From Bacteroidota bacterium (GTDB lineage Bacteria > Bacteroidota > Rhodothermia > Rhodothermales > UBA10348), in contig JAQBZH010000012.1 of assembly GCA_027622005.1 (NCBI GenBank), forward strand, positions 1-58,726: 58,726 nucleotides of DNA, given 5' to 3'. The notes below the pieces were generated by a model, which did no database searches, was not told where the DNA came from, and saw only the letters and a program-made list of their open reading frames with translations. A program made the translations under genes and the position numbers. This document shows, piece by piece, positions 31,393 to 51,505 of the stretch. Every line of letters starts with the position of its first letter. Position 1 is the stretch's first letter.

Positions 31393-32916
31393 CTAATAAG
31401 CTCCCGAAGACCGAACGACTGCACTGAAGGTTCTAACCAAAATGACGATATCGAGCCAAATAGACCAATTGCGCACGTAATACGAATCAAACAATTCCAT
31501 TCCATTCGTTCCTGCATCCGATCGCCCAGAAACTTGCCACATACCGGTCATACCCGGGCTTACGCGTCTTCGCATTGCGCGAATTCGTTCCTCCAACTCC
31601 TCCTCGTGATAGCCAGGAAGAGGACGGGGTCCCACGAGCGACATTTGACCTATTAGGACATTGAACAATTGCGGGATTTCATCTAGGGAATATCTTCGAA
31701 GAAAGTGACCTAAGGGAGTAATACGGGGATCTTTTTTGAGCTTAAAGTCCTTTTCCCACTCTGCTTTTAGTGCAGGATCGTCCAACAGGGCTTTTTGTAA
31801 GACCTGTTCGGCGTTGGTCACCATGGTCCGGAACTTCCATGTTTGAAAAACCCGTCCTCTGTGCCCCATTCGTGTTTGTAAAAAGAAGGGGTTTTTACGG
31901 TCTCCCATCCAAATCAAACCGGCCACAACCCCGACCAACGGAAGCCAGAAAACAGATGTCAAGACCGTAGCGGCCAAATCAAACGAGCGCTTAACGAGCT
32001 TAGAAATGGGGTCTGCCAGGTTCATCGAAATTTTGAGGCCCAGCGTTCCTCCCATATCTACAGTACCTACCCAAAGGGAAGGTAATTCTCGCAAATCTGG
32101 GATGATGATTACGTTGCGATAGTAGGAGAGAGGACCTTCCAAAAGATGCTGTCGATACTCTGGTTCGACGTTATTCATTGCTAAAATGGCCACCTGGGCA
32201 TCTGGCAATACGAGATTCGTATCACCTAAAACGGGAATGCCTCTGATGTGGGCTCCCCAATAAGCCGGATGATCGTCCAAAAAGGCGATTGGTTTATAAC
32301 CGAGGCCTTTCTCCGATTCGAGGTGTCGGACTAAATCACGACCTTCCTCTTCCGCTCCATAAATGACCACTGGAAGGCCGTATTGATTCGATTTGATCAA
32401 AAGGGCTTTAACTACTTTCCTTATGGCCGGAACCAGAAAAAGACCGAGAGCAAATGCGACCGTGAGGGAAAAACGACTGGTTATACTGCCCATTTGGAGC
32501 CAAAAGAGCATCGAAACGGCCAGCGAAAACACGATGCAAAGACTAAGGGTTTGTCGCCTCAATTCCTCCACCGCGCCGAGTCCCCAACCTGGGTACAATT
32601 TGAACGCAATAGCGACAAGTATCCACATTGGTACAATAAACTCGATCCACCAATGCGTCAACGGCTCGCCTAAAAACGCAAAACGAAGGGATCCGGTTAT
32701 AAATAGGGAAGCGGTAAGAGCAAAAATATCCCCCAGCATGAGCGCGAAGGCGTTGTACAATCGACGGTACTCGAACGTAACGGCCGAAACGTGATGGCCG
32801 TGAGAGCGATGTGCCCGAATGGTTTCTCCGATCATGTGATCCGAGATTTCCATGTTTTCCAACAAGCAGTCTGAACCTATCTTTTTTCGAGTGATTCGAT
32901 TAACAACCAGTTCCAT
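31393..32916 (-). CDS. wbaP: Polyisoprenyl-phosphate hexose-1-phosphate transferase (WbaP-like), initiates polysaccharide
   Basis: 507 residues. Four to five N-terminal helices (from about residue 50), a cytosolic Rossmann-like domain (GLPVVIYGAEEEGRDLVRHL), a fifth helix, and the catalytic bacterial sugar transferase domain. The last has KRSFDLAATVLTSVFWLPLV, KNPFFLQTRMGHRG, WKFRTM, RITPLGHFLRRYSLDEIPQL, SLVGPRPLPGYHEEE and PGMTGMWQVSGRSD. This domain architecture is that of WbaP/undecaprenyl-phosphate galactose phosphotransferases. It loads the first hexose-1-phosphate on undecaprenyl phosphate at the cytosolic face. It is the last gene of the polysaccharide operon, 135 bp after the preceding gene. 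Confidence 0.92.
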   Translation of the reverse strand: MELVVNRITRKKIGSDCLLENMEISDHMIGETIRAHRSHGHHVSAVTFEYRRLYNAFALMLGDIFALTASLFITGSLRFAFLGEPLTHWWIEFIVPMWILVAIAFKLYPGWGLGAVEELRRQTLSLCIVFSLAVSMLFWLQMGSITSRFSLTVAFALGLFLVPAIRKVVKALLIKSNQYGLPVVIYGAEEEGRDLVRHLESEKGLGYKPIAFLDDHPAYWGAHIRGIPVLGDTNLVLPDAQVAILAMNNVEPEYRQHLLEGPLSYYRNVIIIPDLRELPSLWVGTVDMGGTLGLKISMNLADPISKLVKRSFDLAATVLTSVFWLPLVGVVAGLIWMGDRKNPFFLQTRMGHRGRVFQTWKFRTMVTNAEQVLQKALLDDPALKAEWEKDFKLKKDPRITPLGHFLRRYSLDEIPQLFNVLIGQMSLVGPRPLPGYHEEELEERIRAMRRRVSPGMTGMWQVSGRSDAGTNGMELFDSYYVRNWSIWLDIVILVRTFSAVVRSSGAY

Positions 32917-33051
32917 GCGCAGGGTTGAATAAGTATTTGGGGATGTTTTCAGACTTACTACAGTTATCGTACCAAACTATCCAAGACCCCAATTTGAGAG
33001 TCATTTTGGCGATAGTGACATTTTTGTCGGTCTCGAGTCTGCATTTGAGAC

Positions 33052-35319
33052 TCAATATTTCACCAGACAAGTGTGATGTGAGACATCACTTCCTCGAAGC
33101 ACTTCATAAGGCTCGGCGACCTCATATAAAAAAGACGTCATCTCCATATCAGGATCGAGTCCGACTACCTGCGTTGAACACAAATGCGTAATATCCTTCG
33201 CGTCAATTTGGATATCTGCCACGTCTGGGCCTGGAATTTGGCCGTTCGAACTGAATTGGTTGGAAAGAAAGCGATTGAAACCGCTTTCTGCTCGATCATC
33301 GTCACGGACCCAGATACCTGCACCGTCATTTTGAACTATGCGACTATTTGTAACTGAGACACCCGTTGTTGCCTGAATTAGAATACCAGAACCCGCCCAG
33401 CCCAGCCTACGAGTATTGGAGATGGTCACTCGTTTAATATCGACGGCCTCGCTTCTGAGCTCAACAAAGATTCCTGCAGCCAAATTGCCGTCGAAACTGG
33501 AGTAAGAAACATTGAGATCCTCGTTGTCGCCGTCAAACCAAAGTCCTGGTCCTTCGTTGCCTTCAGATCGATGGTAAAGGAAGTTGACTCGTTTGGAAGC
33601 AATCCATTTTCCACCACCGGCTTCCCAAAAAGGGTCGTGTCCTACCCAATTATTAAATGAGGTCTCATTCCCGATCAAGAGGCAATCCGTACAGGATCCA
33701 TTGATTCCAGATTGGCCATTGTGATTGGCCATCGAATTCCGAATTTCATGATTATTGCCGATGACTTCAATACCAACTCCATTAGTCCAAACCACGCGGA
33801 CTGAGTCTAACAGGGTACCTTCGGGACCGGTGCAAACCGCACCAGACTGAGCTTGGTTGGCTGCATAGGTAAACGTTAGATTTTTGAGGTGAAACCAACC
33901 TGGCGCCAAGGGATCGTCACAACCGGTCCACTCACTTCCAGGCTTAAAAAGGCTTCCGCGTTTGCCAATTTGGATGATGGGGGCTTCGACAGAACCCGTA
34001 TTAATTAAAATATTGGCTTTTGAAAAACCAGATTGTTCTAAATAAAACGTCCCTGGACTCAATTCAGATCGCTGGAAAACGGGCTTGAGCGGGATCCCAT
34101 CGGCTACGATTAAATCTCGTTGGTAAAGAGTATCGTCTCCGTAGTGATCCAGAGGCGTGTAATTTTTGATCGCCCACAAGGTATTATTAAGCTTGGTAGG
34201 CTTTCCGTACTGATCGGCGCCGGTGATGGTTACCTGATGGCCAGGAGCAGCCCTAATGACCACTCTGCTAGTGGCGCCAATTCCACCCGTAGTAGGCCTC
34301 AATTCTTCGGCATAAACGCCGGATTCAATGAGCAGGGTGTCACCAGGTTGGAGCATCTCGCGGCTGAGAGCCTCTGATATGGTGCGAAAAGGGAATTCCT
34401 TGGTACCCGGATTGCTGTCCGATGCAATCGGGTTCGTTTGACTAACCCAATACGAACGAAATGAACGTGCTTCTGGAGCTGACTGGAAGGGTAATTCAGG
34501 TATCACAGTCCCGCTCAAAAGGACCAAACCCGCTAAGAGAGGAAGGATCGAAAAAAACGCAATTCTTTTTAGCCGCAAACCCAGGAGTTGAAAGCCTGCT
34601 CCTACGATAAATCGGGGATTGTAAATCACGTATCGTTTCCAGAGGCGTTTAGGCTCCATCATCAACCGAAAAAGCCACTCTAGGCCGGATTTTCCCATCC
34701 ACGCGGGAGCCTGTCGAATCGCTCCGCTATGAAAATCAAAAGCAGCACCGACTCCAAGCTGGACCGCTTTAATCGAGTCTCGATGAGCATGCATCCAGCG
34801 TTCTTGTTTGGGGCACCCAATGCCGACAAACAGGATCTTTGTTTGACTATTCCGCAGGTCATCCACGACCTTTTGGTCTTCGCTTTCTGTCAGGGGACGA
34901 AATGGAGGCGCCCAGGAAAACGTGACGTTTAGCCCAGGATACTTTTTCGCCAAAAAAGACGTAAAAGAATCCAGACTTGACGGCGTTCCGCCATAGAGCC
35001 CAATCCCGAGTCCTTCGCGCTCGGCCATCTCGCACACTCTCAAAACCAACTCAGGACCATAAACTCGTTCGGAGCTTTTCAGACCTAATGCTTTGAGCAT
35101 CCAAACCAGCGGCATTCCATCTGAAGTGACTAGGTCAGCTGAATTGACCACGGTCTTAAAATCGGCGGCATCTACCGCTTCCATCGTCATGTGAACGTTG
35201 GCCACACACACGTAACGAGACTCGGATGCAAGAGCCCATGTTCGAATGAGATCGGTGCTCGTTTCGTAGGTACCTGAATGGACCTTCATTCCAAGAATAT
35301 GTCTGGAAGGACTACTCAA
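33052..35319 (-). CDS. WecG/TagA/CpsF glycosyltransferase fused to a right-handed beta-helix domain
   Basis: 755 residues in one open frame. Residues 1-250 are a complete WecG/TagA/CpsF transferase: HILGMKVHSGTYETSTDLI, then VTSDGMPLVWMLKALGL and RVYGPELV, IGLYGGTPSSLDSF, ILFVGIGCPKQERWM, GVGAAFDFHSGAIRQAP and EWLFRLMMEPKRLWKRY. Residues 253-272 are one membrane helix with basic residues before it (KRIAFFSILPLLAGLVLLSG). Residues 290-755 look like a parallel beta-helix: DSNPGTKEFPFRTISEAL, QPGDTLLIESGVYAE, then repeated NxxxxGI/V strands. The helix is outside the cytosol if the transferase is inside. The start is TTG at 35319, since family homology begins at residue 8; an ATG at 35289 would remove it. 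It overlaps the wzy end by 8 nt. Confidence 0.85.
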   Translation of the reverse strand: MSSPSRHILGMKVHSGTYETSTDLIRTWALASESRYVCVANVHMTMEAVDAADFKTVVNSADLVTSDGMPLVWMLKALGLKSSERVYGPELVLRVCEMAEREGLGIGLYGGTPSSLDSFTSFLAKKYPGLNVTFSWAPPFRPLTESEDQKVVDDLRNSQTKILFVGIGCPKQERWMHAHRDSIKAVQLGVGAAFDFHSGAIRQAPAWMGKSGLEWLFRLMMEPKRLWKRYVIYNPRFIVGAGFQLLGLRLKRIAFFSILPLLAGLVLLSGTVIPELPFQSAPEARSFRSYWVSQTNPIASDSNPGTKEFPFRTISEALSREMLQPGDTLLIESGVYAEELRPTTGGIGATSRVVIRAAPGHQVTITGADQYGKPTKLNNTLWAIKNYTPLDHYGDDTLYQRDLIVADGIPLKPVFQRSELSPGTFYLEQSGFSKANILINTGSVEAPIIQIGKRGSLFKPGSEWTGCDDPLAPGWFHLKNLTFTYAANQAQSGAVCTGPEGTLLDSVRVVWTNGVGIEVIGNNHEIRNSMANHNGQSGINGSCTDCLLIGNETSFNNWVGHDPFWEAGGGKWIASKRVNFLYHRSEGNEGPGLWFDGDNEDLNVSYSSFDGNLAAGIFVELRSEAVDIKRVTISNTRRLGWAGSGILIQATTGVSVTNSRIVQNDGAGIWVRDDDRAESGFNRFLSNQFSSNGQIPGPDVADIQIDAKDITHLCSTQVVGLDPDMEMTSFLYEVAEPYEVLRGSDVSHHTCLVKY

Positions 35320-36823
35320 ATTTCACGGTATGGCTGCGCACAATGACGGGAATTTGGTCCAATCCAGTTGCGACTTGTGTTTTGTAAAGGTGATATGCCC
35401 CAACTCCAAACCCCATCACGCTCCAGAGCCACACGCCACCCATCGGGTTTTCCAAAAACACGTCAAATGAGGCATTTATGACAAATGCGATCCAATAGGC
35501 TAACAAAAAAGCAAAAATGCCGTGCCAGTTGTGAAGTGATCGCTTCCGGGCTTCCAGGCATGCCCCTAAAAGAGTAAAAAACCAGGTTAAATGGACGGCA
35601 ACCCAAAGTCCAAAACCAACGACACCGGATCGCGCCAAAATAGTCATGTGGGCATTGTGGGGGCTCCTCAGCACATCATCATCCAATACTTGATATCCAT
35701 CGTCGGAGGCGAGGTTGATGCCATACCCCTTTCCAAAAACAAAATACTTCCCGCCAAACGTATAGTTGATGATGTCCGTCCACCAATTGATTCGCCAGGA
35801 TTTGGTGGTTTCAAGTGTAAATGAAGCGGAATTGTCGAATGTCGAAACAACATTTTCGGTTAGCTGCTCCGCCGAAATGACACGGCCATGTCCAAGATCA
35901 ATTTTTGGATTGATGAGCAAGACCAAGGTAGCAGCAAGCACAACAGCGTAACTAATGGCCGTCAGCTTCAATTTTGGCGGGTTTAAAAATAACAGCAGAA
36001 TAAAGGCTGCCCCGAAAGCCAACATTCCGGCCCTTTTGCTGATCAACAGAATTCCGAGATTTATTAGTAGTAATGGCACGAAAACGAGCCGATTACGGCT
36101 CATTCCTACAGCAATGAAAGCCATAACGCCAGAAAGGTGCACTAACAAGTCTCCTCCTCTGGCTTCAAAAAAGTCAATGGAGGATCCAGGCAGCTTGAAT
36201 CCCTTAAAGATTTCCGAGGTCGTAACTATAAACATGATCCCGGCAAGGGCCAGAAAAATGACGGAAAAGCTTCTATAGCGCATAATGACCCAACGGAAAA
36301 CCGGAGGGGATGACACTAATATGGAGGCTATAACTAGAGCGAAAATGGAATAGCCCCAAAGAACACCATCTCGTAACACAAAGAGACCATATTCAGGAAT
36401 ATGCGGAAGAGTCACCATCAAGCTCCAAACCAAAAACGCCAAGAGAAGCTGCACTACGGGGTACTTCAGAAACGTCGGAAGACTTTTTGACCGAATCATG
36501 GCGACAATACCGAGTCCGAGAACGAACTCGCCGACATAGAAGGGAGCCACGCCAAGGTTGGCAAAACCGCGGCCAATGACGCCATATCCGAGCAGAATAA
36601 AGACCCATCCAAACAGAAAACATTTGGATATGAACGAGGACGTCGGAGGTCTCGAGAAACGGTCTTTTGTAAGCAAGTCGGCCGATTTTCGATTGCTAGT
36701 TCGCCGAAGTCCGGCAAAGGGTGTCCGCGCGAGCGTATTGGAATACGTCGGCAAATCAGGCTTTAAAGACTGTTCTTGCGACTCCCCAGGTCTCGATAAA
36801 ACGATTTGAGAAAGATCTTTCAT
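35312..36823 (-). CDS. wzy: O-antigen polymerase/ligase-like membrane protein (Wzy/WaaL family)
   Basis: 503 residues. A polar N-terminus of about 70 residues is followed by about ten to twelve helices and one large periplasmic loop before the late helices (about residues 310-395, containing GKGYGINLASDDGYQVL and SPHNAHMTILARSGVVGFGL). The late PHNAHMTILARSGVVG block, with its His, is the O-antigen ligase/polymerase signature. In this context it most likely polymerises repeat units (Wzy) on the periplasmic side. The ATG at 36823 overlaps the stop of the upstream GT4 gene (ATGA). Confidence 0.85.
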   Translation of the reverse strand: MKDLSQIVLSRPGESQEQSLKPDLPTYSNTLARTPFAGLRRTSNRKSADLLTKDRFSRPPTSSFISKCFLFGWVFILLGYGVIGRGFANLGVAPFYVGEFVLGLGIVAMIRSKSLPTFLKYPVVQLLLAFLVWSLMVTLPHIPEYGLFVLRDGVLWGYSIFALVIASILVSSPPVFRWVIMRYRSFSVIFLALAGIMFIVTTSEIFKGFKLPGSSIDFFEARGGDLLVHLSGVMAFIAVGMSRNRLVFVPLLLINLGILLISKRAGMLAFGAAFILLLFLNPPKLKLTAISYAVVLAATLVLLINPKIDLGHGRVISAEQLTENVVSTFDNSASFTLETTKSWRINWWTDIINYTFGGKYFVFGKGYGINLASDDGYQVLDDDVLRSPHNAHMTILARSGVVGFGLWVAVHLTWFFTLLGACLEARKRSLHNWHGIFAFLLAYWIAFVINASFDVFLENPMGGVWLWSVMGFGVGAYHLYKTQVATGLDQIPVIVRSHTVKFE

Positions 36824-38067
36824 ACCAGACCTCTGTGAATCCTACTCAACTCGTCCGACTTAACAGTCATCGAGAAAAACTCCGTAACACGTTGTCTACC
36901 AACCGCACCCAGTTTGTCACACAAAGTGGAATCCGAAGCAATAAGTGTCATGCCGTGAGCCAAAAATGCAATGGCATTCTCCTTCGAATCGATGGGTGCG
37001 ACGAATCCGCAGGTCGAGTCTACAAACAACGATGGTCCGCCCGTGTCAAGGCATAAAACAGGATTTCCAGCCGCCATCATTTCCAAGCACACATACCCAC
37101 CGGATTCGTGTAGGCTTGGGTGGACCAACGCGTGGGAGGTCTTCATCAGGCTGAACATGTCTTTCCGCGGTATTTGCTCTATAAATTCTACCTGCTCGTT
37201 AATACCCAAGTCGCTCGCAAGCCGAACCAATCTTTTTTTAAAGGAGCCAGAACCCACTATCAAGTATTTTGCGTCGGATAGCTCGGCACGCGCGAATGCT
37301 TCAAGACCAAGTTGAAATCCTTTCCATTCTAGCAGCCTGCCTATACTGGCAAAAGTTACTTGTTGGGAGCGATTCGTTGGTCCCGCTAGGTATTCAAGAT
37401 CGGAAGACGAAAGTGCAGCCGCATTCATTATTTGAACATTATCGGCCCCCATTTTTTTCATCCGTGAAGCCGTTTCCGGGGTATTGGCCAGCGCGATATG
37501 GCTTGTGAGCGCATTTTTCCTCGTTAAAAGGGAAAACTCCCCCATACGTCGCATGACGTTTCGAACAACCTCAAAAAGGCTTCCTTTGAAAGAAAACACG
37601 TCGTTAAAGGCACTTGGCACCGACTCACCGCCACCGACGGGACCCCAAACAAAGGGAATCGGGAGCGCGGAGAGGGGAGAAGGCATCCAATAACGCGCAT
37701 AGGTCACATGTTGGGACGAGGTGAACGAGTGTCCAACATGCAACCTCAAAGCCACCCCTCTCGCTTTCAACAGCCAAGTCAAGTAGCCAAAATCGACGCC
37801 GATCTTTCCTATTTTTGAAAAGAATGATTGTACGGGACCAGGAAGGTCGCACGATTCAAAAGTGGGCCGGTGTTCGACGTTAAGATCCCGGAATTTATCC
37901 TCAGAAAGCGCCTTTTCGGATGATCGCGTTAGGACTACGACTTCGTGACCACGATTCGCGAGTTGTAATGCGGTGTCCCACCCGACGGACTCTTCAGAGC
38001 CTCGATCTGGCGAACAGGCGTACGCGCAAAGCAATATGCGACTCGAATATGACGAAGGGCTATCCAT
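36820..38067 (-). CDS. GT4-family glycosyltransferase
   Basis: 415 residues with a GT-B fold. The N-terminal domain starts RILLCAYACSPDRGSEESVG, the donor-side loop that recurs in this subfamily, and contains FVWGPVGGGESVP. The C-terminal half has FASIGRLLEWKGFQLGLEAF, YLIVGSGSFKKRL, then VHPSLHESGGYVCLEMMAAG, which holds the E-x7-E motif, and PVLCLDTGGPS. It transfers a sugar from a nucleotide donor to the growing lipid-linked unit on the cytosolic side; sugar not deducible. It overlaps both the wzy gene (4 nt) and the kinase/GT4 gene (8 nt). Confidence 0.88.
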   Translation of the reverse strand: MDSPSSYSSRILLCAYACSPDRGSEESVGWDTALQLANRGHEVVVLTRSSEKALSEDKFRDLNVEHRPTFESCDLPGPVQSFFSKIGKIGVDFGYLTWLLKARGVALRLHVGHSFTSSQHVTYARYWMPSPLSALPIPFVWGPVGGGESVPSAFNDVFSFKGSLFEVVRNVMRRMGEFSLLTRKNALTSHIALANTPETASRMKKMGADNVQIMNAAALSSSDLEYLAGPTNRSQQVTFASIGRLLEWKGFQLGLEAFARAELSDAKYLIVGSGSFKKRLVRLASDLGINEQVEFIEQIPRKDMFSLMKTSHALVHPSLHESGGYVCLEMMAAGNPVLCLDTGGPSLFVDSTCGFVAPIDSKENAIAFLAHGMTLIASDSTLCDKLGAVGRQRVTEFFSMTVKSDELSRIHRGLV

Positions 38068-39934
38068 TCAGATGGGCACCCCTCAAATTCTCTAAAACAT
38101 CCTGTCCAATGGCGCTCCATCTGAAATGGGTAGTGGCATATGATTGAGCTTTGAGCCCCATCGTTTCCCAGCGTGGTCGCTCATCAATAACACGCCGCAT
38201 CCCTTCCTCAATTCCCCCGGCGGTAGGCTCGACAACGATGCCTAGTCCATGAGCCCGAATGATCGGTGACAGTCCCCCTACATTGGTAACTACCATGGGA
38301 CGCGCCGCAACCATCGCCTCGACCGCGGCTACCGGAAACCCTTCCGAGCGGGAGGGCAACAGAAATACGTCATATTGAGCCATGAGGTCAATAGGACTAT
38401 TTTGGTAGTCAGGTTCGACAAATTTCACGATTGAGGCCAATTTTCTATTCTCAACTTCGCTTTTTAAAGCAGCCAAATCCCCGTTATCCGGTCCTTGGAG
38501 ATAGACTTCAATACAGTGATCGACCGAAATGGAGGAAACTGCAGCTAATAAAAGATCGAGCCCTTTCGTTTTGATCTCGATTCTCCCAAAAAAATGAAAT
38601 CTAACAGGGCCGTCTTTCGACCAAGAAAGTTTTGGCTCCCGATCTAACACGGCTGCGCTAATTCCATTTGGTGCTGAAAATGCCGTTGTATGAATGCCCA
38701 ATTGTTGGAGCCTGTCTATTTGCCGAGAATCCAGCATGTGAATTCCCACGGCTCGGCGGAGCACTCTTTTTTCAAAAAGGTGCCAATACACCCATTTTCG
38801 AACCCAATTCTTGGCAAACATTTGGGGAGAGAGCTCCATGTGAGGCGCGAAAACGAACGGTAGGTCTCGTCGACAAAGAGCAAATACCAGCCAGGTGTTA
38901 AATGGGCTAAATAGACTATTGAAAACGGTTAACGTACCTAGGTCCTGCGACATCAGGTGCTGCTTTAGGGCACGAGTGGAAGAAAAGTATTCCACCGTGT
39001 ATCCAAATTTCGTAGAGCAAACCGCTGGTGGGCCTACGGCAAGCAGTTTAAGCTTGGGATGATGGGCGGATTGGCTTATTCCCTGGAGAAGTCCATGGAC
39101 AGCTTTGTGGATCCCGTTGGATATCGTCGATAAATCGGATGGGAAATCGCCAACGACAAACGACAACTGCGCCAGTGGTCTTTTCCGAGCGCTTTTAAAT
39201 AGTTTTTGTCTGGTATTTGGGCCTTTCCAACGGTAGAATATGCGTCTTGCCCAGGATCCAAACTGCATTCGACTTTGCGCCCTAATCCAGGCCGCATCTT
39301 CAAATGCTAGATTCCATTCTTCGCCAAGCTGGTACGCCAAACGGCCCAAAAACGAACCAATGGCCGAAATTCTGGACAAAGGCAACGACGAACCAGGCCT
39401 GGCACATTCGTACAGGGTGCTACCCACCATCTCTGAAAGAACGGCTCGAATATCGGAATGCTGGATGCCCTTTAAACTTTCTGATCCGTTTCCGAAATCC
39501 AAAAAAGTAATTTTCCCCGAGTCTCGCACAATGATGTGATCTAGCGTGCAATCTGGTTGGAGAATGGACCCTTTTGGATTCAATACTAACAGTCCTTCGG
39601 CTACGAGATCGGCCAATCGATGGATTTCAGATAAATCATGGTCGCGATTCATCAGACATGCCAGTAACGATTCACCCGGAATAAATTCCATGTACAGCGA
39701 CTGACCATCATCCGAGAGACCCAACGGAAGTGGAACGGATACTAATTCGTGATTTTCGGTGCGTCGGTAAGCTTCTTTAAGCGCAACTAACTCTCGTTGT
39801 GCTTTCATGGCTGCCGTTTGTGGGCCTTCGCGATCAAATCGCTTTTCGACTCGATTTAATCGATCATCATAATAGACCGATGCTTCCGAACCTCGACCCA
39901 CAATTCTCTTTGATATGGAAGTGGATGAGTTCAT
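38060..39934 (-). CDS. Fusion of Bud32/RIO-like small kinase domain and GT4 glycosyltransferase
   Basis: 624 residues from the ATG at 39932-39934, which overlaps the wzx stop (ATGA). Residues 1-240 resemble an atypical protein kinase of the Bud32/RIO type. They show a glycine-rich loop IVGRGSEASVYYDDRLN (11-27), then KR at 31-32, the hinge-like YMEFIPGESL, the catalytic-loop-like QPDCTLDHIIV (126-136, Asp 128), and ITFLDFGNG with the DFG at 146-148. Residues about 270-624 are GT-B: PVRFHFFGRIEIKTKGLDLL, VFLLPSRSEGFPVAAVEAMV (E-x7-E) and VVTNVGGLSPII. The kinase could phosphorylate a sugar or lipid intermediate, or be regulatory; that is inference. Confidence 0.8.
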   Translation of the reverse strand: MNSSTSISKRIVGRGSEASVYYDDRLNRVEKRFDREGPQTAAMKAQRELVALKEAYRRTENHELVSVPLPLGLSDDGQSLYMEFIPGESLLACLMNRDHDLSEIHRLADLVAEGLLVLNPKGSILQPDCTLDHIIVRDSGKITFLDFGNGSESLKGIQHSDIRAVLSEMVGSTLYECARPGSSLPLSRISAIGSFLGRLAYQLGEEWNLAFEDAAWIRAQSRMQFGSWARRIFYRWKGPNTRQKLFKSARKRPLAQLSFVVGDFPSDLSTISNGIHKAVHGLLQGISQSAHHPKLKLLAVGPPAVCSTKFGYTVEYFSSTRALKQHLMSQDLGTLTVFNSLFSPFNTWLVFALCRRDLPFVFAPHMELSPQMFAKNWVRKWVYWHLFEKRVLRRAVGIHMLDSRQIDRLQQLGIHTTAFSAPNGISAAVLDREPKLSWSKDGPVRFHFFGRIEIKTKGLDLLLAAVSSISVDHCIEVYLQGPDNGDLAALKSEVENRKLASIVKFVEPDYQNSPIDLMAQYDVFLLPSRSEGFPVAAVEAMVAARPMVVTNVGGLSPIIRAHGLGIVVEPTAGGIEEGMRRVIDERPRWETMGLKAQSYATTHFRWSAIGQDVLENLRGAHLNG

Positions 39935-41250
39935 CGAGTTGTTGGATCCAGACTTAATCGCGCGGCCAATTCTGGTTTTACCAGAGCTTGAGCCAGAAAC
40001 ACACCGATAACTACATGCTGAACAATCCGAGATAGAGGAGCTCCCAAAATGCCCACCCAAGAAATCAAGCCGATGGTTACCGTAGCAAACAAGGCAAGTG
40101 AAATGAATTGAGCAACCATAACGGGCCTGTTGTTTTCGGTGGCAATCAGACCCAACTTGGCAAAAAGGGCTGCAAACGCGAAGAGTCGGGCCAATGCCGA
40201 AACCGATAGCACCACGGCGAATAATTCGGTGGCATATCGGACATCAAAAAACAGCGTTAATAGCTCCATTGCGCCTACGCTAATGGCCATTACTAAAATC
40301 GCATAGGGTATACAAAGCATCAGAGCCTGTTTTCGAAGCCAGGCAATCATGGCGGGCCTCCCCTCAGCTTCAACTATCTGAGAGGCCTTCACGGGGAGGT
40401 AGTTAGAAACGGAAAGGTCTAAGGGATTTAGCAGGTTGGTAACGTAGGTCGCCGCTCTGTAGCCGGCCACAAGAGGTGCTCCCATAAAAGCCCCGATTAC
40501 CCACGTATTTCCGTTTTGACCGATCCAGCCAATAAACTCGCCCGTAGTCAACCATTTTCCGAATTGCCATAGCTGCTTTGCTACCTTCCCGAGGCCTTCG
40601 TTGCCTTTGAAAAAGCCGGTTAAGTAAGTTCGGATTTGAAATAAGCCCCATACAGCCGCAATTAGAGAGGATCCGCTGAGTACGTAGAATACGGTTAGTG
40701 CCGATCCCGTAACCGAAGCCTTGATCAGGACAAGAATGGCGGCGAGTTGAAGTACATAGCAAATGGCATCGTTGAGGGTGGCAGCTGCGATGCGTTCGGA
40801 AGTGTATAAAATGCGTCTTATCGCGTCTTGTAGCATCCACGGAAGAATTCCAATGGCCAGAGCGAAGGCGCCATTAGACCACGGGGACCAGGACAACCAG
40901 CTAAATATGAATCCGAACCCGACAAATAAGAGGGTCGTCAGCATTCCGAATACTAACACGAGCTTAACGACCGACTTGGTCAAGTGCGAGTATTCTTTTC
41001 CTTCTTGCTTCGCTCCCAACACATTGTGAGCTCTGGTTATAAGGGCGTGTTGAACGGATTGAACAAACAGTAGAACCGTGAAAATGAGAATGTATTGACC
41101 AAACTCGGTGACTTCCATCCAGCGAGCTAGCACCAGAAAGGTCAAGAAGTTCATACCACTGATTATGCCCTGATCAACGACGGCATAAAAACCGTTTTTA
41201 CGGATTCCTTTTCGGCACAGATCAACGATATGGCGAAGCTGAATTTTCAC
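39931..41250 (-). CDS. wzx: Polysaccharide flippase (Wzx/MATE-like)
   Basis: 439 residues with about twelve membrane helices. The N-terminal LVLARWMEVTEFGQYILIFT, a typical polysacc_synt pattern (F-x-x-x-x-L-A-R-x-x-x-x-x-x-F-G-x-Y), is followed by repeated short loops, with a Trp-rich central part (EFIGWIGQNGNTWVIGAFMG). It should flip the lipid-linked oligosaccharide from cytosol to periplasm. The start is a GTG at 41250; no in-frame ATG precedes the family-like sequence. Its stop is coupled to the kinase/GT4 gene. Confidence 0.88.
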   Translation of the reverse strand: MKIQLRHIVDLCRKGIRKNGFYAVVDQGIISGMNFLTFLVLARWMEVTEFGQYILIFTVLLFVQSVQHALITRAHNVLGAKQEGKEYSHLTKSVVKLVLVFGMLTTLLFVGFGFIFSWLSWSPWSNGAFALAIGILPWMLQDAIRRILYTSERIAAATLNDAICYVLQLAAILVLIKASVTGSALTVFYVLSGSSLIAAVWGLFQIRTYLTGFFKGNEGLGKVAKQLWQFGKWLTTGEFIGWIGQNGNTWVIGAFMGAPLVAGYRAATYVTNLLNPLDLSVSNYLPVKASQIVEAEGRPAMIAWLRKQALMLCIPYAILVMAISVGAMELLTLFFDVRYATELFAVVLSVSALARLFAFAALFAKLGLIATENNRPVMVAQFISLALFATVTIGLISWVGILGAPLSRIVQHVVIGVFLAQALVKPELAARLSLDPTTR

Positions 41251-41284
41251 ACCATTTAGAACTTCTTAATTCCGCTTTTTGCGC

Positions 41285-43894
41285 TTATTTGGATTTTTTA
41301 TTAGTCACGCGAGCCGTGTCAAATCCGTTCAAAATGGCACGTACAGTGGATCCAGTCGAACCTTTGACGTCATCAGCCATATCCTTTAATCGTTTGCTGT
41401 CCGATGCGCCTGAACGTACCACCAGTATTAATTCTTCGGCGATTTTTGAGAGCCCAAGCGCAATGGTTGAGTGGGACAATGAAGCCGTGTCAATGACGAT
41501 GGCATCAAACTGCAAGCGAATTTGCTGGATCAAAGGAACGAGGTTGTTCGAAAGCAAAACGTCGGGATTCGGATGCCCCGACGTGTCCACCGTTAAGGCA
41601 AATAAGGTGGGCAAATAAGGTGAAAAGACCTCAATACCTTTTCCACTAGCAAACGAAAACGCATCGAGGTCAAACTTCGACTGGTCAGTCAAGCCCAAAA
41701 CGTCGAGTTGCGAAGGTCGATGAATGTTGGCATCCACCAGCAAAACCTTTGCTCCTGACTTTGCCAGGGAAGCGGCCGTATTGGCCGCCAAAAAGCTAGT
41801 GCCGACCCCATTTTCGATTCCTGAGAAAACAAAGATGCTGTTTTTGAGTCGATTTCCCGCAAATCTCAAAGGAATGGATCGCAAAGAACGCGTTGCGGGT
41901 GAATCAGGGTTCAAGATGGTCACCATTTCGGAGGATACCTTTCGGTCATAGTAAACCCGTTTCGACTTGCGAGACACATTTTTTATGTTGGGGATAGTGC
42001 AAATGACATCCACTCCCAGCTTTTCAATATCCGACTGCTCAAATACTCGACGATCCGTTTTTTCAGAGGTTATAGCGGCCCCAATACCGGCTAGGATTCC
42101 AAATAATCCGCCCAGAATGAGGATAAGCCGTGGATCGGTTTTTGGGGTCAATGGCACGTTAGCAGGCAGGATGATCCTAGCAAATGAGCGCCGTGCGTCC
42201 GATGCTTCTTCAACGAGACGAATCTTATCGTCCAGGTCTTCCAATTGCTCCGTTGTAGCCGTGTGTCTACTCTGGATGTTTTTGAATTCAACTTCGCGTT
42301 CAGGCATCGCTTTGCGACGAACTTCGTAGTCGGCAAGCTTAATGAGGGTTGCAGACTCCCTTGCTCTCGCAGCATTTAAAGACACCTTGGCTTCAGATAT
42401 CGTGCGACCCAACCTGGCCATATATGAAATCATGCCGTCATTCGATCGAAGGTCTACGCCCCCAACCGCAGTGATGGAATCCGCGTAATCTTGTGACAGA
42501 GTAGCAACTTGCTTTTGAAGAAGTTCACGTTCAGCTAGTTTATCGGTCAGGTCTTTGCTAGGCGATGGATCGACTTTAAGGTCTGGGTTTTTGACGTAGT
42601 ATTGCTCAATCGCAATATTCAAAACCGAGATACGCTTATAGTTTTGGTCCAATTGGTCTTCAATACCATGCGCAGTACGTTCTGCGACCAGCTGTCCGTC
42701 CATAGAAGAAACTTCCAATTCAAGCGATTCAATAGACGCCTTGAATTCCTCTATTTCTATAGTCGTTTTGTCCAGAATGGTGGAGAGGGATGATATTTGA
42801 TCCAACACATGTCTGGATTCTTCCGACCCGAAAAGGCCTCCGTCCGCCCGAATAAGAGTCCGTAATTCCTCGGACAGCCCTTCTAATTTATTGACTTGCG
42901 CATCTCGTCGTTGACTAAAGTAGGATAGAGCCTCTTCGAAATGGCGCGAAACCAGCGTTTCAACGTGCTCGACATAGGTTCGCCCAAACACATTCGCGAT
43001 CAAGGCTGCTTCACGAGCGTCTGTACTGGAAACTAAAATGTTGATAGCGTCGGGTTCGTTATCGTCAGTAGCGCTCCCTTCAACAGTTACATACTCGGTT
43101 CTAAGAAGCGTAGCGAGTGTGATTCCATCTTTGTCAAGGGCTGCTTGCCTCTCAAAAATAGTCCAGGTCGCTGCATCTGGCGATTCAGATCGAACCACGG
43201 CCAAGTCGGCTGCAGCTCTGCTGGACAATTCGGAGGAAGTCTGAAGTATCAACGTTTGATTGGCAAGCTTAGAGCTTCCCATGGGGGCATCTTCGGTGTT
43301 TAGACGAGGCAGATCCTTGATTTCATCTTGAAATCCCCTTGTATCCACCATAAGCGTCGTTAAAGCCGCATACTGAGGATCGACAAAAGTGACATAGACG
43401 CCAACTGCTGACCAAATTAGAATGGCGACAAAAATGAACACTGGAAATCGACGTAACAGAACCCGAATCATTCGATCAGGATCGGATACCTTTTGCGAGG
43501 CATTTTCAAACATGTCCGGAAACAGGGGCTCCGGCGCAGGAATGTGGACCACCTGGTGATGCGTCTCAACAACGGGAGGAGCAGGGCTGAAAGCGTGCGA
43601 ATCGCTAAGTTTCTGCCAGGTCGGAAACGCTGAACGAGATGACTGCGTCCGCATTTCTTCCGGCTCAATAACTTCATCGTGATCCGATGGCGCTGCATTC
43701 CAGTCTGGCCAAATTTTAAACTCGGCAGATGTTAAAAATTGCTCCAAATCTGGATCAACGGCGGGACGCCCGCTTTGCCGACGACCACCTCTGACCGGAA
43801 GCCTGCTTGAGGCCTCCCGCCCGGAATCATGCCCTCGACGCCTGGGGTCTCCAGTGCCAGCTGAGCCGTTGTCGATATGGTCTAGAACGCTCAT
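41285..43894 (-). CDS. Wzz/Wzc-like polysaccharide chain-length protein with degenerate BY-kinase domain
   Basis: 869 residues. A polar, probably disordered N-terminal extension (1-145) precedes the first helix (151-170, [20 protein letters not shown]). There is a Wzz-type periplasmic region with coiled coils (about 300-570), a second helix (590-608), and a C-terminal MinD/BY-kinase-like domain (690-869). In the last, the P-loop is GVGTSF (696-701) where active kinases have G-x-G-K-S/T, so the lysine is replaced by Thr. The Walker A' is [11 protein letters not shown] and the Walker B is DAIVIDTA. The C-terminus lacks the tyrosine cluster. It probably sets chain length and couples to export but may not autophosphorylate. 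It overlaps uxs by 4 nt. Confidence 0.85.
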
Positions 43895-44970
43895 GTTCTT
43901 GGGTCTTGAGATTTGATTCTACTTTTGATACGGATGCGTCTCTGAATAGCGCCTCTTTGGCCCATCTTCCCGACGGGTCGATCTGACTTACGGAAGTGAG
44001 TTTTGGCACCTGATATTTTTGCTACTTCGTTGACAAAGTATTCCAAGGTGGTTGCAAGCCCAGTACTCCGGTTCATGGTCGGAGACCAATTCAAAATGGA
44101 TTTAGCTCGGGTAATATCGGGGCAACGGACCTTCGGGTCGTCCTGGGGAAGTGGATGATACGTGATAGTGCTTTTGCTACCCGTCAGCGCGACCACTTCT
44201 TCTGCAAACTGGCTAATGGTGCATTCTTCTGGATTTCCAACGTTTACCGGGTTTGGTTCGTCACTATGCAGTAACCGAACTATGCCTTCAACAAGGTCAT
44301 CGACATAGCAAAAAGACCGCGTTTGGCTGCCATCACCGAAAATGGAAATCGGCTCTCCGGAGAGCGCTTGTTTCATAAACGTAGGCAGTACCCTTCCATC
44401 ATCTAGCCTCATACGAGGCCCGTACGTGTTGAAAATGCGTACAATTCGAGTTTGCAAACCCAACTCCCGATGATAGGCGGACATCAGAGCTTCGGCAAAC
44501 CGTTTAGATTCGTCATAGACACTTCGAGGTCCAATCGGGTTAACGTTTCCCCAATAGGATTCTTCCTGTGGATGGATGAGGGGGTCTCCATATACCTCGC
44601 TGGTTGAAGCCTGCAAAATGCGAGCGTTCGACTCAACGGCCAAATCCAGCAGGTTTTTCATGCCACTCGATCCAACCGCTAACGTCTCCATCGGAAACTT
44701 CAAATAATCGATTGGAGAAGCAGGGCAAGCAAAGTTCAAAATGAACTGAAAATTGCGTCCGACGTCCAGCGAAGCTGAAATATCTTGGTGCAGAAAGGTA
44801 AAATGGGGCGTTCCGAGTAAATGATCTACGTTTTCGAGCCGACCAGTTAGCAAGTTGTCAACACACGTAACGTGGTGGCCATCAGCCAAAAATCGTTCAC
44901 AAAGATGCGAGCCGATAAAGCCAGCACCACCAGCAATAAGGGTGTTAGGACGCGAGGGATTCGCCACCAT
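43891..44970 (-). CDS. uxs: UDP-glucuronate decarboxylase (UXS), NAD-dependent SDR
   Basis: 359 residues. NAD-binding [20 protein letters not shown] at 14-33, the UXS-typical [33 protein letters not shown], the Y-x-x-x-K pair (Tyr 152, Lys 156 in [13 protein letters not shown]), [19 protein letters not shown] and [15 protein letters not shown]. These blocks distinguish UXS from GalE-like epimerases. It converts UDP-glucuronate to UDP-xylose, a donor for the polymer. A basic tail of about 40 residues beyond the usual end (RIRIKSRIK) is extra. It is the first gene of the operon, and its stop overlaps the next start (ATGA). Confidence 0.87.
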
Positions 44971-45154: not shown

Positions 45155-45301
45155 CGGTTCAGGTTACAGTACGTTGCCTTACGAAACCGATCCTGCGGCC
45201 GGAAACGGCCGGTTCTTGGGTCGGTGCATCACGTCTCAGTGATGATTGGTTCTGGGTGAAGCTGCCCGTCTCCTCAAAAGGGAGTCGGGCATGCTTTTTT
45301 T
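45155..45301 (+). ncRNA. Candidate stand-alone structured RNA
   Basis: On the plus strand three stem-loops line up. Stem 1: CCGATCC (45187-45193) with GGGTCGG (45218-45224), enclosing CGGCCG-GAAA-CGGCCG (45196-45211), a perfect 6-bp stem with a GNRA tetraloop. Stem 2: CATCAC-GTCTCA-GTGATG (45227-45244). Stem 3: an intrinsic terminator, GCCCG.CTCC with GGAG.CGGGC (45264-45290), followed by T7. Genes on both sides are on the minus strand, so this is not the leader of any plus-strand gene. The GAAA loop and the T-run both favour the plus strand. It does not fit 6S, SRP, tmRNA or RNase P. The 5' end is a guess. Confidence 0.5.
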
Positions 45302-46940
45302 AATGACTCACCACCAAAGGATGCGTTTTGTCAAACGCAATTCCATTAAAGCCCGAAACCTTGATGCGGAAGAAATAGGTACCAGCTGACAGATCCGAGA
45401 CATCAGCTATCTGCGAGTACCACTCGTCCTCCGTTTGAAATCCGGTTTCCCATTCTCGGACTTGCCGTCCTAACGCATCGTATAGACTAACGGTAACGAG
45501 CCCTTCAACCGACAAAAAGTATCTAAACTGAGCGGTTGTCGATGTAGGATTCGGAAATGCAGAAGTCAGGAGGTAGGTGGACGGATCCGCAATTTCAACT
45601 TCTATCCTTGCCAATTCTTGTTTTCGACCATCTGCTCGGCTCGCAATGAGCAAATACGTTACCCTTGATTCGCCCAAAACACCTTCGTCCGTGAACGAAA
45701 GCGAACCCAGGGCATCGAGTACGATTTTGGAAGTTCCGAGACTGGTGATGCGTTCGACATAGAGAGAGTCTATGCCAAAATCTTGAGTAATACTCCAGGA
45801 CAGATCGACTCTTCCCTTAGCGTCCGCTGAAGCCGTCATCGTGCCAACCCCAATCAGCTCATTCCCCGACACCAACAAATTCGCAACCTGCACGCGGAGT
45901 TGTGGCAAAAGTACATAATTATTGTCTCCGGGGCACGCCGTTGTGCTGAAATCTCTGTGGCCTCGGATTAAAGTGGGAGCAACCCCATACCGTTCACTTA
46001 AGAATGCGAAAAGGACTTTATAGGTCTCGTAAGCCGCTGGTGTAATTTGCTGGACGCAGCTAGAACCCTCCGGTGGGTGGTAACATCCCATGATGACCAC
46101 ACCAATATTTCCCGTATTTCCATTGCCTACGTGTGCTCCCATTGCGAGGACGGGCACCTGAGACAACGAAGTGCTGTTGTCCATAAACGGCCGGCCTTGA
46201 TACAAGCGACCTCCGCGGTCGATTGCAAACTGATACCCGATATCGCTCCATCCACGCACGTTTTGGTGGAGATCCTGCATGGCCAGCATCTGAGCCTTTC
46301 CCTGAGCCTCCGTTTCGGCGGAATATCCAGCGGCGTGATGCATCGTCATAAATTGGTAAGCCCCATTCGCCAGGGGGGAGGGAGAACCGCTTTTAAACGG
46401 CTTGGCGCTCCACTGGGCCCGAGTTATCAGCGGTGGTGGAATAATGGAGCCCGTTTTTGATCCAATCGCAGGTTTGAAATCCCCGGAAGGACGTTGGTCT
46501 TGATCCAATGCGTTGTTAAAAACACCCGCGTTACGAACCACCGTAACAAAATCCGAATTGGAGTCGACCTTAAACTCGAATCGGCTGGCGATGATGAGCT
46601 TATCTTGGCGATACCCTGCTACCAACGTGCCACCCGTAGCAGATCGATTGATATAGGCATCCGTCCATTCCGACCATATATCATCGTTCAAAAATCGAAA
46701 AAACGCTTTTGGGTCTGGATCCGTGCTGCCAATTTCGACGGCAACCCCAGAAAAGGGGGTCGAAACGAATTCGCTAGTATAAAAGAGCTGCGTTCGCTTT
46801 CCGGCTACAACGCGGGTTTCATTATCCAACCCCGTGAAGGTGTCCACGACGTCGGCAAGCATTTGAGCCTTAGCAGAAGTGGCTACCAAAACAAGTAGCA
46901 GGCCCCACACGAGACGTTTTCCCATCGATCGAATTCCCAT
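45300..46940 (-). CDS. N-acetylmuramoyl-L-alanine amidase (PGRP/Amidase_2) with T9SS sorting domain
   Basis: 546 residues. A signal peptide (MGKRLVWGLLLVLVATSAKA from the second Met at 46925; the first is at 46940) is followed by a roughly 150-residue beta domain. The amidase runs from about 165 to 345: LITRAQWSAKP, MTMHHAAGY, the DIGYQFAIDRGGRLYQGRP block, NIGVVIMGCYHP, then IRGHRDFSTTACPGDN, with His, His and Cys as zinc ligands. An Ig/FN3-like linker and a T9SS type A domain close the protein (FPNPTSTTAQFRYFL, YDALGRQVREWE, LSAGTYFFRI). It should be secreted to the surface and cleave stem peptides from peptidoglycan, possibly of other bacteria. Confidence 0.9.
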   Translation of the reverse strand: MGIRSMGKRLVWGLLLVLVATSAKAQMLADVVDTFTGLDNETRVVAGKRTQLFYTSEFVSTPFSGVAVEIGSTDPDPKAFFRFLNDDIWSEWTDAYINRSATGGTLVAGYRQDKLIIASRFEFKVDSNSDFVTVVRNAGVFNNALDQDQRPSGDFKPAIGSKTGSIIPPPLITRAQWSAKPFKSGSPSPLANGAYQFMTMHHAAGYSAETEAQGKAQMLAMQDLHQNVRGWSDIGYQFAIDRGGRLYQGRPFMDNSTSLSQVPVLAMGAHVGNGNTGNIGVVIMGCYHPPEGSSCVQQITPAAYETYKVLFAFLSERYGVAPTLIRGHRDFSTTACPGDNNYVLLPQLRVQVANLLVSGNELIGVGTMTASADAKGRVDLSWSITQDFGIDSLYVERITSLGTSKIVLDALGSLSFTDEGVLGESRVTYLLIASRADGRKQELARIEVEIADPSTYLLTSAFPNPTSTTAQFRYFLSVEGLVTVSLYDALGRQVREWETGFQTEDEWYSQIADVSDLSAGTYFFRIKVSGFNGIAFDKTHPLVVSH

Positions 46941-46972
46941 ACACTCAATAACCGTCTATCCTTTTTGAAAAC

Positions 46973-48043
46973 TTAAAATTGCAGATTAAACGTGTACCAA
47001 TGGGTTTGTTCAAGCCGCCCGAAATCAGCGTAGGCGTAATCAAAACTGGCCTTCGTCGATTTGTCCATCCGTAAATTTATTCCAGCGCCCATCGTAAGTC
47101 CTTGCTCGCCATCGGTTTCGAATGCATTGCGATAACCAGAGCGTAAAGCAAACAGATCTCGAAATTTGTACTCAATCCCCATATTCAAATACTCGCTATT
47201 GTCATTGGGGTGGGCCGCATCAGTCATCACAACAATTTGATGATTGGATGTGGAAACCGCGTCCCAGGCCAACCCGACTCGAAACATAAGCGGAAGCGGG
47301 TGTTGATCCATTGAATATTCAGAGTTCACGATTTCAACGTTGCCACTTTGGTTGGGGGTAGGATCGGTACTGAAAATGATGTCACGACCGGACATTTGCA
47401 TTTTGGGACCAAAGTTGGACATAGACGCTCCAAGTCTGAGATCCTGATACGGCGTAGTGAACAGCACTCCCACGTCGAATGCCATGGCCGATGCTGAACT
47501 GTGCCAGATTTGCTCCCGAATGTATTTAAAGGTCGTTCCGATTGAAAAACGATCGGTTAAAGCTTTGGCGTAACTCAACTGAAGGGCTAGGTCTTGCTTT
47601 TTAAACAGCTCCCCAGTGCCTTCAGGCGTAGCGGTCGTCCTGACCTCCATTTCACCCGAATCAAGGTAAACCAAACTTGCAGCGATCGTCCCCAGTTGCC
47701 CGACATTAACCCCAAACGCTGCATAGTTATAGGAGATATTGGCTAGATATTGTGTGTGGGAAAACTGAACGGCGCCCCCAGATATTTTACTAAGACCCGC
47801 AGGATTCCAATAAAGAGCAGAGAGGTCGTTGGCTTCCGCAACAAACGTTCCGCCCAACCCGATTGCACGCGCCCCGACACCCAATTTCAAAAATTGAGCG
47901 GAGGTCGTTCCTACCTTGGTAATGGTTTTAGTGGCGCCTCCGTCCGAAAGACTTTGAGCCCCAACAGGAATTCCAATGGCAAAAATGACAACCAAAGCAG
48001 CGATTCGCTTCAATGCCGACATAAATTGAATTGAATTTGACAT
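46973..48043 (-). CDS. PorV/PorQ-family outer-membrane protein
   Basis: 356 residues. A signal peptide is followed by an outer-membrane barrel of the FadL-like PorV/PorQ family: QFLKLGVGARAIGLGGTFVA, then LSALYWNPAGLSKISGG, VQFSHTQYLANISYNYAAFG, and a final amphipathic strand ending THWYTFNLQF. PorV is the shuttle that accepts T9SS cargo, and the family also includes PorQ/PorP relatives. The start codon overlaps the stop of the upstream giant gene (TAATG), so it is translated with it. By context it is a dedicated partner of that T9SS-sorted protein rather than the general PorV. Confidence 0.82.
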   Translation of the reverse strand: MSNSIQFMSALKRIAALVVIFAIGIPVGAQSLSDGGATKTITKVGTTSAQFLKLGVGARAIGLGGTFVAEANDLSALYWNPAGLSKISGGAVQFSHTQYLANISYNYAAFGVNVGQLGTIAASLVYLDSGEMEVRTTATPEGTGELFKKQDLALQLSYAKALTDRFSIGTTFKYIREQIWHSSASAMAFDVGVLFTTPYQDLRLGASMSNFGPKMQMSGRDIIFSTDPTPNQSGNVEIVNSEYSMDQHPLPLMFRVGLAWDAVSTSNHQIVVMTDAAHPNDNSEYLNMGIEYKFRDLFALRSGYRNAFETDGEQGLTMGAGINLRMDKSTKASFDYAYADFGRLEQTHWYTFNLQF

Positions 48044-51000: not shown

Positions 51001-51423
51001 AACAATATGCATTACCCAAATAGGATTGCCCGCAGTATCCGTTACCAGAGTGCCATTATCATCTCTTTTTAGGACGCTCTTGGGATCCTTATGACCAACA
51101 TCTACAACTTCAGCGGCCACAAAGGGGCCAAACTCGTATCCGTATCCCAGGCCATTCCAAACGATATCGGTAATGGTATTTCCGGGTGATGAAATGGAAC
51201 CGAAATTCAAAATTTGGCTCGTAATGCGGTTTCCATTCAAAATGGCTTCACGACGGGTGGTCTGGTCTTCTAGGCAATCCGAAACGGCCGGCCGACCACT
51301 TTTGGCTGCTTGATTATCGAGCCAACGACGTTGCTCACGATAGTCCCATCCGCGTTCCCGGTCCTGAGAAGAAGCAGGAAGCGCCAATACGGCGATCAAA
51401 CAAAAGAAGGAGAGTGTTTTCAT
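48043..51423 (-). CDS. Giant T9SS-sorted surface protein with calcium-type repeats and FN3 domain
   Basis: About 1126 residues from the ATG at 51421-51423, where a clean signal peptide starts (MKTLSFFCLIAVLALPASSQ); an in-frame TTG at 51468 and ATG at 51465 lie upstream. Around the middle is a cluster of D/N-rich calcium-binding-type motifs, GDGIDNDGDRMLDESW, TDGIDNDNDW and DTGVDGIPGTGDRGENDGRP, as in thrombospondin type 3 repeats. An FN3-like domain follows (KVTLYWDNRAELSLDP, FEGYAIYRS, TYYYSVTAYDRGF). The C-terminus is a T9SS type A domain (FVVPNPYVG, IRIYSLAGELVDTI, YGLYIFQVES). It is cotranscribed with the PorV-like gene and preceded by the TonB receptor. Function unknown. Confidence 0.8.
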   Translation of the reverse strand: MKTLSFFCLIAVLALPASSQDRERGWDYREQRRWLDNQAAKSGRPAVSDCLEDQTTRREAILNGNRITSQILNFGSISSPGNTITDIVWNGLGYGYEFGPFVAAEVVDVGHKDPKSVLKRDDNGTLVTDTAGNPIWVMHIVSDGIVSNGAEISPDQSERWGWQPIPCAEPVGAFEGIEVVSRDSDQIPTSDARDKDLDGRPDSWPSSWYNDNLKEYVWPGALQQGSSNADKEALYFMNDYSNKEFAYFPFNNNTTKKGLGLEVEVRLYQWANPLAEDTIFLVYKISNKSDTDLEKVTFGMWGDPHVGGPGDWADDLAFFDQSRNMVFAWDNNQIGDVPGRIPGYFGYKFLESPGLGNEIINGVFYPGDGIDNDGDRMLDESWTDGIDNDNDWNQETDDTGVDGIPGTGDRGENDGRPTAGDQFDITKPGEPNFEFTDIDESDMIGLTSFASPRFSGSNIREDEQVWGWVKPGRFDSVPSEPGDYVFLYGSGSFPLRAGETKRFSIALIVGENLSDLRLNAETVQQIFNVGYRFARPPDKPRIRAVAGDKKVTLYWDNRAELSLDPLSRTLDFEGYAIYRSTDHEFSDRQTITDINGSKFLFQPLTNKLGVEAKFDLNNGLRGPSPIVFPQRGVSFDLGDDTGLFHTYEDTDVVNGQTYYYSVTAYDRGFAPGQTGAFVTGIPPSETAKTITYNPVDDSYIFDINSVSVIPKPRTGGYVAPSITEAGGIQHDTGHATGDISIKIVDELAVKDAGQYRMSFQGSPLNYSVEDAQIITKTLKAVKGKTAALGLQNIKPETFILKTASGNQLSSPADYVLNASIGNVLVLGSSITDGDLLTATFQYFPVYQSRLLSNQESNPIFDGLHVFVQNDVLGLDEEDTGWSAGGKSIEFAVEVAKAGPRRIPQPNDYEIVFDNANVSTGFSNNLPLPFTVTNLTQANQRIDVFVTDLNRDGKWNINEAIIFLDNVAGVLTASWQVTLVDNGSIPGTGDVFYIKTSKPFASTDTFSFSTLAASTDSESAKAALRDIFVVPNPYVGTNELEPRNPVSRSERGDRRLYFANVPRKCTIRIYSLAGELVDTIYHDSTLDDGKAFWDLRSKDNMNIAYGLYIFQVESAEGSFIGKFAVIK

Positions 51424-51505
51424 TCTGCTCGTGGTGAACATAAAAAATGCGTGTTTTTGGAGCATCAATTTAATTAGACAGATTGGCTCTTAATTGGTCT
51501 TGTTT

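Follow-up and report, generated by a model that had tools for sequence, protein, structure and literature searches.

Organisation of the Fusion Gene

The window (the whole analysed stretch of DNA, 58,726 nucleotides) carries a gene at 33052–35319 in which a GT26 (WecG/TagA) glycosyltransferase, a single membrane helix and a right-handed beta-helix are encoded in one open frame. Our preferred reading, held at a probability of roughly 0.55, is that its product is an inner-membrane-anchored, PslG-like glycosidase of a Wzx/Wzy exopolysaccharide pathway, hard-wired to the transferase that adds the second sugar. The evidence is computational: the two domains, a single helix between them, a join kept in relatives, conserved GH120 active-site residues and the cluster context.

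33052–35319, minus strand: whole fusion gene, 755 amino acids (open frame; the same frame in G002 and G013, partial in G005)
34570–35319, minus strand: GT26 WecG/TagA transferase half, residues 1–250 (PF03808, TIGR00696, TagA 7mpk)
34501–34557, minus strand: single membrane helix, residues 255–273 (hydropathy 2.26; K/R-rich flank)
33055–34470, minus strand: right-handed beta-helix with inserted second domain, predicted to be extracytoplasmic, residues 284–755 (AlphaFold2, Foldseek, VIA-align)

The order of the parts is GT26 (1–250), membrane helix (255–273) and beta-helix (about 284–755). The start codon is TTG and lines up with the ATG starts in G002 and G013. The original prediction of one frame with a transferase, a helix and a beta-helix was borne out by family profiles, hydropathy and a structure model. 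A full-length fusion model built from three sequences had a pLDDT of 47 and was set aside; the good model covers the beta-helix half only.

Conservation of the Join

The fusion is one frame with 64% identity in G002, which belongs to the same genus, and one frame in G013, another genus of the family, with halves that are 67% and 52% identical. In G005, residues 198–755 are present with 57% identity and the frame ends at the contig end. A profile of the fused proteins found the joined frame only in the window and in G002, G013 and G005 among 245 genomes of the class, so the fusion is kept in three other genomes and two genera (one copy at a contig end). Elsewhere in those 245 genomes, including most of the order, the halves are separate genes. 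WecG without the beta-helix occurs in many genomes of the order and the reverse in some, and therefore neither half needs the other. The 79 near WecG genes on other contigs, from many phyla, included none with more than 36 residues past the match. An 850-residue frame of G012 that contains WecG and resembles a fusion was rejected as an unused reading frame over Wzy.

The separate halves in most of the order would favour a sequencing or assembly error that joined two genes here. Three further genomes, each assembled independently, carry the same join with 3–48% divergence per half; chance and misassembly are therefore excluded, and we give an assembly error a negligible probability. One case that would have overturned the original prediction was that homologues exist only as two genes with an error in this contig; instead, the join recurs. 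When 36 beta-helix domains were placed on a tree, those fused to WecG, four in all, grouped together with support of 100/100, so the joining of WecG and beta-helix probably happened once.

The pairing of WecG or GT26 with a beta-helix or hydrolase domain was not found described in the open-access papers searched; its kind, namely glycosidases of exopolysaccharide clusters and membrane fusions of transferases with hydrolases, is already known.

GT26 Transferase Half

A complete WecG-type transferase had been predicted at residues 1–250. PF03808 matched residues 61–230 (E 6.8e-57, 192 bits against a cut-off of 27.4), TIGR00696 scored 175.5 bits against a cut-off of 69, and TagA (7mpk) matched at 2.7e-29, aligned over residues 8–238. 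TagA is characterised by the general base Asp65, by Arg221 in the C-terminal appendage and by Thr37, which positions ManNAc (PMC6493773).

35119–35121, minus strand: D67 codon, corresponding to TagA general base Asp65 (alignment; role from PMC6493773)
34645–34647, minus strand: R225 codon, corresponding to TagA Arg221 of the C-terminal appendage (alignment; PMC6493773)

In the 7mpk alignment, TagA Asn39, Arg83 and Gln167/Glu168 correspond to N41, R85 and Q172/E173, and the appendage arginines Arg214/221/224 to R218/R225/R229. TagA Thr37 is replaced by V39. As judged from sequence, the profile cut-offs, the catalytic Asp and the appendage Arg place this half in GT26, and the replacement of Thr37 therefore bears on the donor sugar and not on membership. 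Since the other TagA residues are kept and Thr37 is V39, this half is expected to be functional, possibly using a different sugar; homology is unlikely to settle which sugar is donated. WecG-family enzymes add the second sugar onto a monosaccharide linked to undecaprenyl pyrophosphate (PMC11340318), and by analogy the GT26 half would do the same.

Fold of the Beta-Helix Half

PF13229 (Beta_helix) matched residues 493–635 (E 8e-16), and a DUF1565 piece was found at 300–339. A profile built from an alignment of eleven relatives from the order matched the GH120 beta-xylosidase XylC (3vst) best (E 7.8e-25), and mannuronan epimerases at 2e-6. The right-handed beta-helix of about 465 residues that had been predicted was recovered by AlphaFold2, with a pLDDT of 93.4 and a pTM of 0.93 from a 36-sequence alignment. 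Foldseek ranked 3vst first (E 6.3e-19, TM 0.71 by query length), followed by the glycoside hydrolase BT_1002.

The longest structural alignment by VIA-align was with XylC (414 residues, 2.5 Å, Z 29.0, about 21% identity). The highest Z (34.5) was given by the epimerases AlgE6/AlgE4, over about 320 residues only, and PL6 lyases were also among the high-Z matches. The extra length aligned with XylC fits an inserted second domain common to XylC and the fusion. The predicted model has the fold of GH120, in which, as XylC shows, the right-handed beta-helix core carries an inserted second domain. The scores are split between XylC and AlgE6/AlgE4; therefore the fold alone is not decisive and the residues decide.

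Active-Site Residues of the Beta-Helix Half

In XylC, Asp382 is the nucleophile and Glu405 the acid/base; three relatives of XylC lose their activity when the corresponding residues are mutated (PMC8954004). GH120 is a retaining family (PMC6887791). The XylC residue matches were counted from the printed ends of the profile alignment.

33532–33534, minus strand: D596 codon, predicted nucleophile, corresponding to XylC Asp382 (profile alignment; role from PMC8954004)
33460–33462, minus strand: E620 codon, predicted acid/base, corresponding to XylC Glu405 (profile alignment; role from PMC8954004)
33607–33609, minus strand: K571 codon, invariant, corresponding to XylC K358 (profile alignment, 36 relatives)
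33622–33624, minus strand: E566 codon, corresponding to XylC E353 (profile alignment; E in 25 of 36 relatives, gap in 7)

D596 and E620 align with the GH120 nucleophile and acid/base and are unchanged in all 36 relatives. K571 and W594 (XylC W380) are also invariant across the 36 sequences. A divergent branch (family f2; L161, L138–L147) lacks E566 and keeps K571, D596 and E620. Taken together with the model, these residues make a predicted GH120-like retaining glycosidase the preferred reading of the beta-helix. At about 21% identity to XylC, the substrate and even the reaction could differ, and a CAZy family or subfamily separate from GH120 is possible.

The original prediction named lyases and epimerases among the options and proposed a check for rows of Lys/Arg/Asp; the GH120-like Asp/Glu pair points to a glycosidase instead. 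A polysaccharide lyase or C5-epimerase shares the overall fold and is represented by AlgE6/AlgE4 and PL6 among the high-Z matches. We consider it improbable: the epimerase and lyase alignments are about 320 residues long against 414 for XylC, the invariant Asp/Glu pair matches GH120, the AlgE-type DPH motif was not seen by eye at the aligned place, and the cluster contained no gene recognisable as part of a uronate pathway. Beta-helices often bind glycans, and a non-catalytic domain holding the flipped unit close to Wzy would also explain the tethering. This is very improbable, as D596, E620 and K571 never vary among 36 relatives from different phyla, some of them separate proteins bound to the surface.

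A retaining transglycosidase, transferring or cyclising chains instead of hydrolysing them, is a further and rather unlikely reading of the outer half. The predicted active site is of the retaining type, GH120 enzymes also perform transxylosylation (PMC8954004), and the GH17 half of NdvB was proposed to act likewise (PMC10237404). No acceptor-site feature was identified in the beta-helix, and the sequence does not set hydrolysis apart from transfer.

Relatives of the Beta-Helix in Other Genomes

Outside the class, the beta-helix was sampled through 50 genomes carrying near WecG genes. Its relatives lie mostly in exopolysaccharide clusters, often adjoining WbaP, and are usually separate proteins that are secreted, lipid-anchored, or dockerin- or T9SS-tailed. 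In family f12 the beta-helix is a separate gene with a lipobox-like N-terminus, and in family f8 a separate gene with a signal peptide plus a dockerin or T9SS tail. Distant relatives were found within 10 kb of WecG in Accumulibacter, acidimicrobial, chloroflexus-type and Rubrobacteraceae contigs. In G025, a family f2 beta-helix is present as two neighbouring genes beside GT4 and WbaP.

A second type of fusion was found in G007 (L102:9121–11898), where GT4, a membrane helix and a beta-helix form one 925-residue frame directly after a separate WecG. The beta-helix is thus joined to a pathway transferase at least twice, once to GT26 and once to GT4.

Membrane Helix and Topology

One membrane helix had been predicted at 253–272; the hydropathy peak was located here at 255–273, with a positive-inside flank before it. 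The 20 residues ahead of the helix contain four K/R and no D/E, and all four WecG fusions have three to four K/R and no D/E at this place. Such a flank fits an N-inside, C-outside protein, and we infer this topology for the fusion. The beta-helix would be extracytoplasmic because its separate relatives carry signal peptides, lipoboxes, or a dockerin or T9SS tail. The helix occupies the signal-peptide position of these relatives and is probably the former signal peptide of a once separate beta-helix gene.

The same position raises the alternative that signal peptidase cuts the fusion, leaving the transferase in the membrane and setting the glycosidase free in the periplasm, and that the joining has no function. 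In the GT4 fusion of G007, a good signal-peptidase-like site (AQA/AP) follows the helix. By a simple rule, the four WecG fusions have no good A-x-A site there and only weak −3,−1 matches, and their joining is kept across two genera. Given the good site in G007 and the weak ones in the WecG fusions, processing is the main rival to an anchored glycosidase, and we regard it as unlikely.

Operon and Cluster Context

The operon (31393–44970) has the order SDR, Wzc, Wzx, GT4, GT4, Wzy, fusion, WbaP.

31393–32916, minus strand: WbaP-type initiating sugar-phosphate transferase, downstream neighbour (TIGR03022, 423.9 bits against a cut-off of 403)
35312–36823, minus strand: Wzy/ligase-like polymerase, overlapping the fusion start by 8 bp (PF04932, 2.4e-14)
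36820–38067, minus strand: GT4 glycosyltransferase (PF00534, 1.1e-27)
38060–40060, minus strand: GT4 glycosyltransferase with an extra N-terminal part (PF00534, 3.8e-21)
39931–41250, minus strand: Wzx-type flippase (PF01943, 4.7e-9)
41285–43894, minus strand: Wzc-type chain-length protein with a P-loop domain (TIGR01005, 3e-21)
43891–44970, minus strand: nucleotide-sugar epimerase/dehydratase (SDR), upstream cluster end (PF01370, 9.5e-50)

WbaP, Wzx, Wzy and Wzc occur together in 31393–43894, as in a Wzx/Wzy cluster, and G013 has the same gene order. The original prediction knew of no standard operon with this fusion. This holds in that the halves are usually separate genes in the order; it does not hold for the operon itself, which is an ordinary Wzx/Wzy cluster, and a membrane fusion of transferase and hydrolase has a precedent in NdvB/Orphan (PMC10237404).

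About 300 residues before the transferase domain of the GT4 at 38060–40060 had no family match. The Wzx and GT4 genes of the window overlap by about 130 bp (39931–40060). In G018 (L107:2000–5479) and G021 (L104:15340–18849), a Wzx-type flippase region and GT4 are joined in one frame, about 1160 residues long in each genome. An amidase with a T9SS tail, a PorV/PorQ-family protein and a 1141-residue protein without a family match lie together at 45300–51468.

Deletion scars in relatives mark the SDR as the cluster boundary. In three genomes of the same genus (G001, G003 and G004; L192, L193 and L194), the exopolysaccharide cluster seems to have been lost as a whole, and the scars differ: WbaP residues 435–486 are left beside the amidase in G001, WbaP 415–507 at the contig end in G003, and WbaP 469–507 is joined to SDR 1–78 in G004. 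Repeated independent loss of the cluster at one site is suggested.

Proposed Mechanism

In the anchored-glycosidase reading, WbaP would load the first sugar onto undecaprenyl phosphate, and the GT26 half would add the second sugar, on the cytosolic side, to the resulting undecaprenyl-pyrophosphate-linked sugar. The GT4 enzymes would finish the unit, Wzx would flip it and Wzy would polymerise it outside. The membrane helix would hold the beta-helix in the periplasm next to Wzx and Wzy, where D596 as nucleophile and E620 as acid/base may hydrolyse particular beta-linkages of the unit or of the polymer. The beta-helix may thereby trim, release or clear the nascent polymer, in the manner of PslG in the Psl pathway, and the fusion would be a permanent version of the PslG-type association with the inner membrane. 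In this way, synthesis and polymer processing may be physically linked.

GT26 forms beta linkages, the type of bond that GH120 cleaves. The fusion could therefore count, release or abort chains at the reducing end, with the outer half cleaving the linkage, or the lipid-proximal end, built by the inner half. We regard such a make-and-break enzyme as a long shot; if true, recycling of the lipid carrier would be regulated through chain release or abortion.

Comparison with Known Systems

PslG of Pseudomonas aeruginosa, a glycosidase from an exopolysaccharide cluster located at the inner membrane, is by analogy the closest functional parallel. Its inner-membrane association and hydrolytic activity are both needed for normal Psl production, and free periplasmic PslG lowers it (PMC6813494). 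PslG differs from the fusion in being a separate protein with a different fold, and it is kept at the membrane through PslA, PslD and PslE instead of being fused to a transferase. NdvB/Orphan of pseudomonads combines a GT2 domain with a GH17 on the periplasmic side (PMC10237404) and likewise carries a cytoplasmic transferase and a periplasmic hydrolase in one polypeptide connected by membrane segments. Its GT2 is processive, spans the membrane several times and makes cyclic glucan, whereas the fusion has a GT26 predicted to act on a lipid-linked monosaccharide, one helix and a beta-helix enzyme.

XylC shares with the outer half the fold, the inserted domain, the position and spacing of nucleophile and acid/base, and the GxK and GLWxD motifs. 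In addition to its low identity, XylC differs in degrading xylo-oligosaccharides and lying outside any polymer-making cluster. TagA and WecG match the transferase half over the full domain, down to the catalytic Asp and the arginines of the appendage; TagA has nothing beyond the appendage, is bound to the membrane only peripherally and has Thr37 where the fusion has Val. The promonan cluster of Sphingomonas LM7 is also Wzy-type, with a WecG-family transferase and two glycosylhydrolases, but all its genes are separate and the hydrolases belong to other families, one of them GH10 (PMC11340318).

Why polymer-making clusters encode polymer cutters such as PslG, AlgL and BcsZ is still debated. The two joinings, to GT26 and to GT4, point to a need for a cutter at the assembly site, and the fusion is a compact protein in which this idea can be tested. 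From the sequence comparisons, the GH120 active site would extend from xylan degradation to enzymes found with polymer-making genes.
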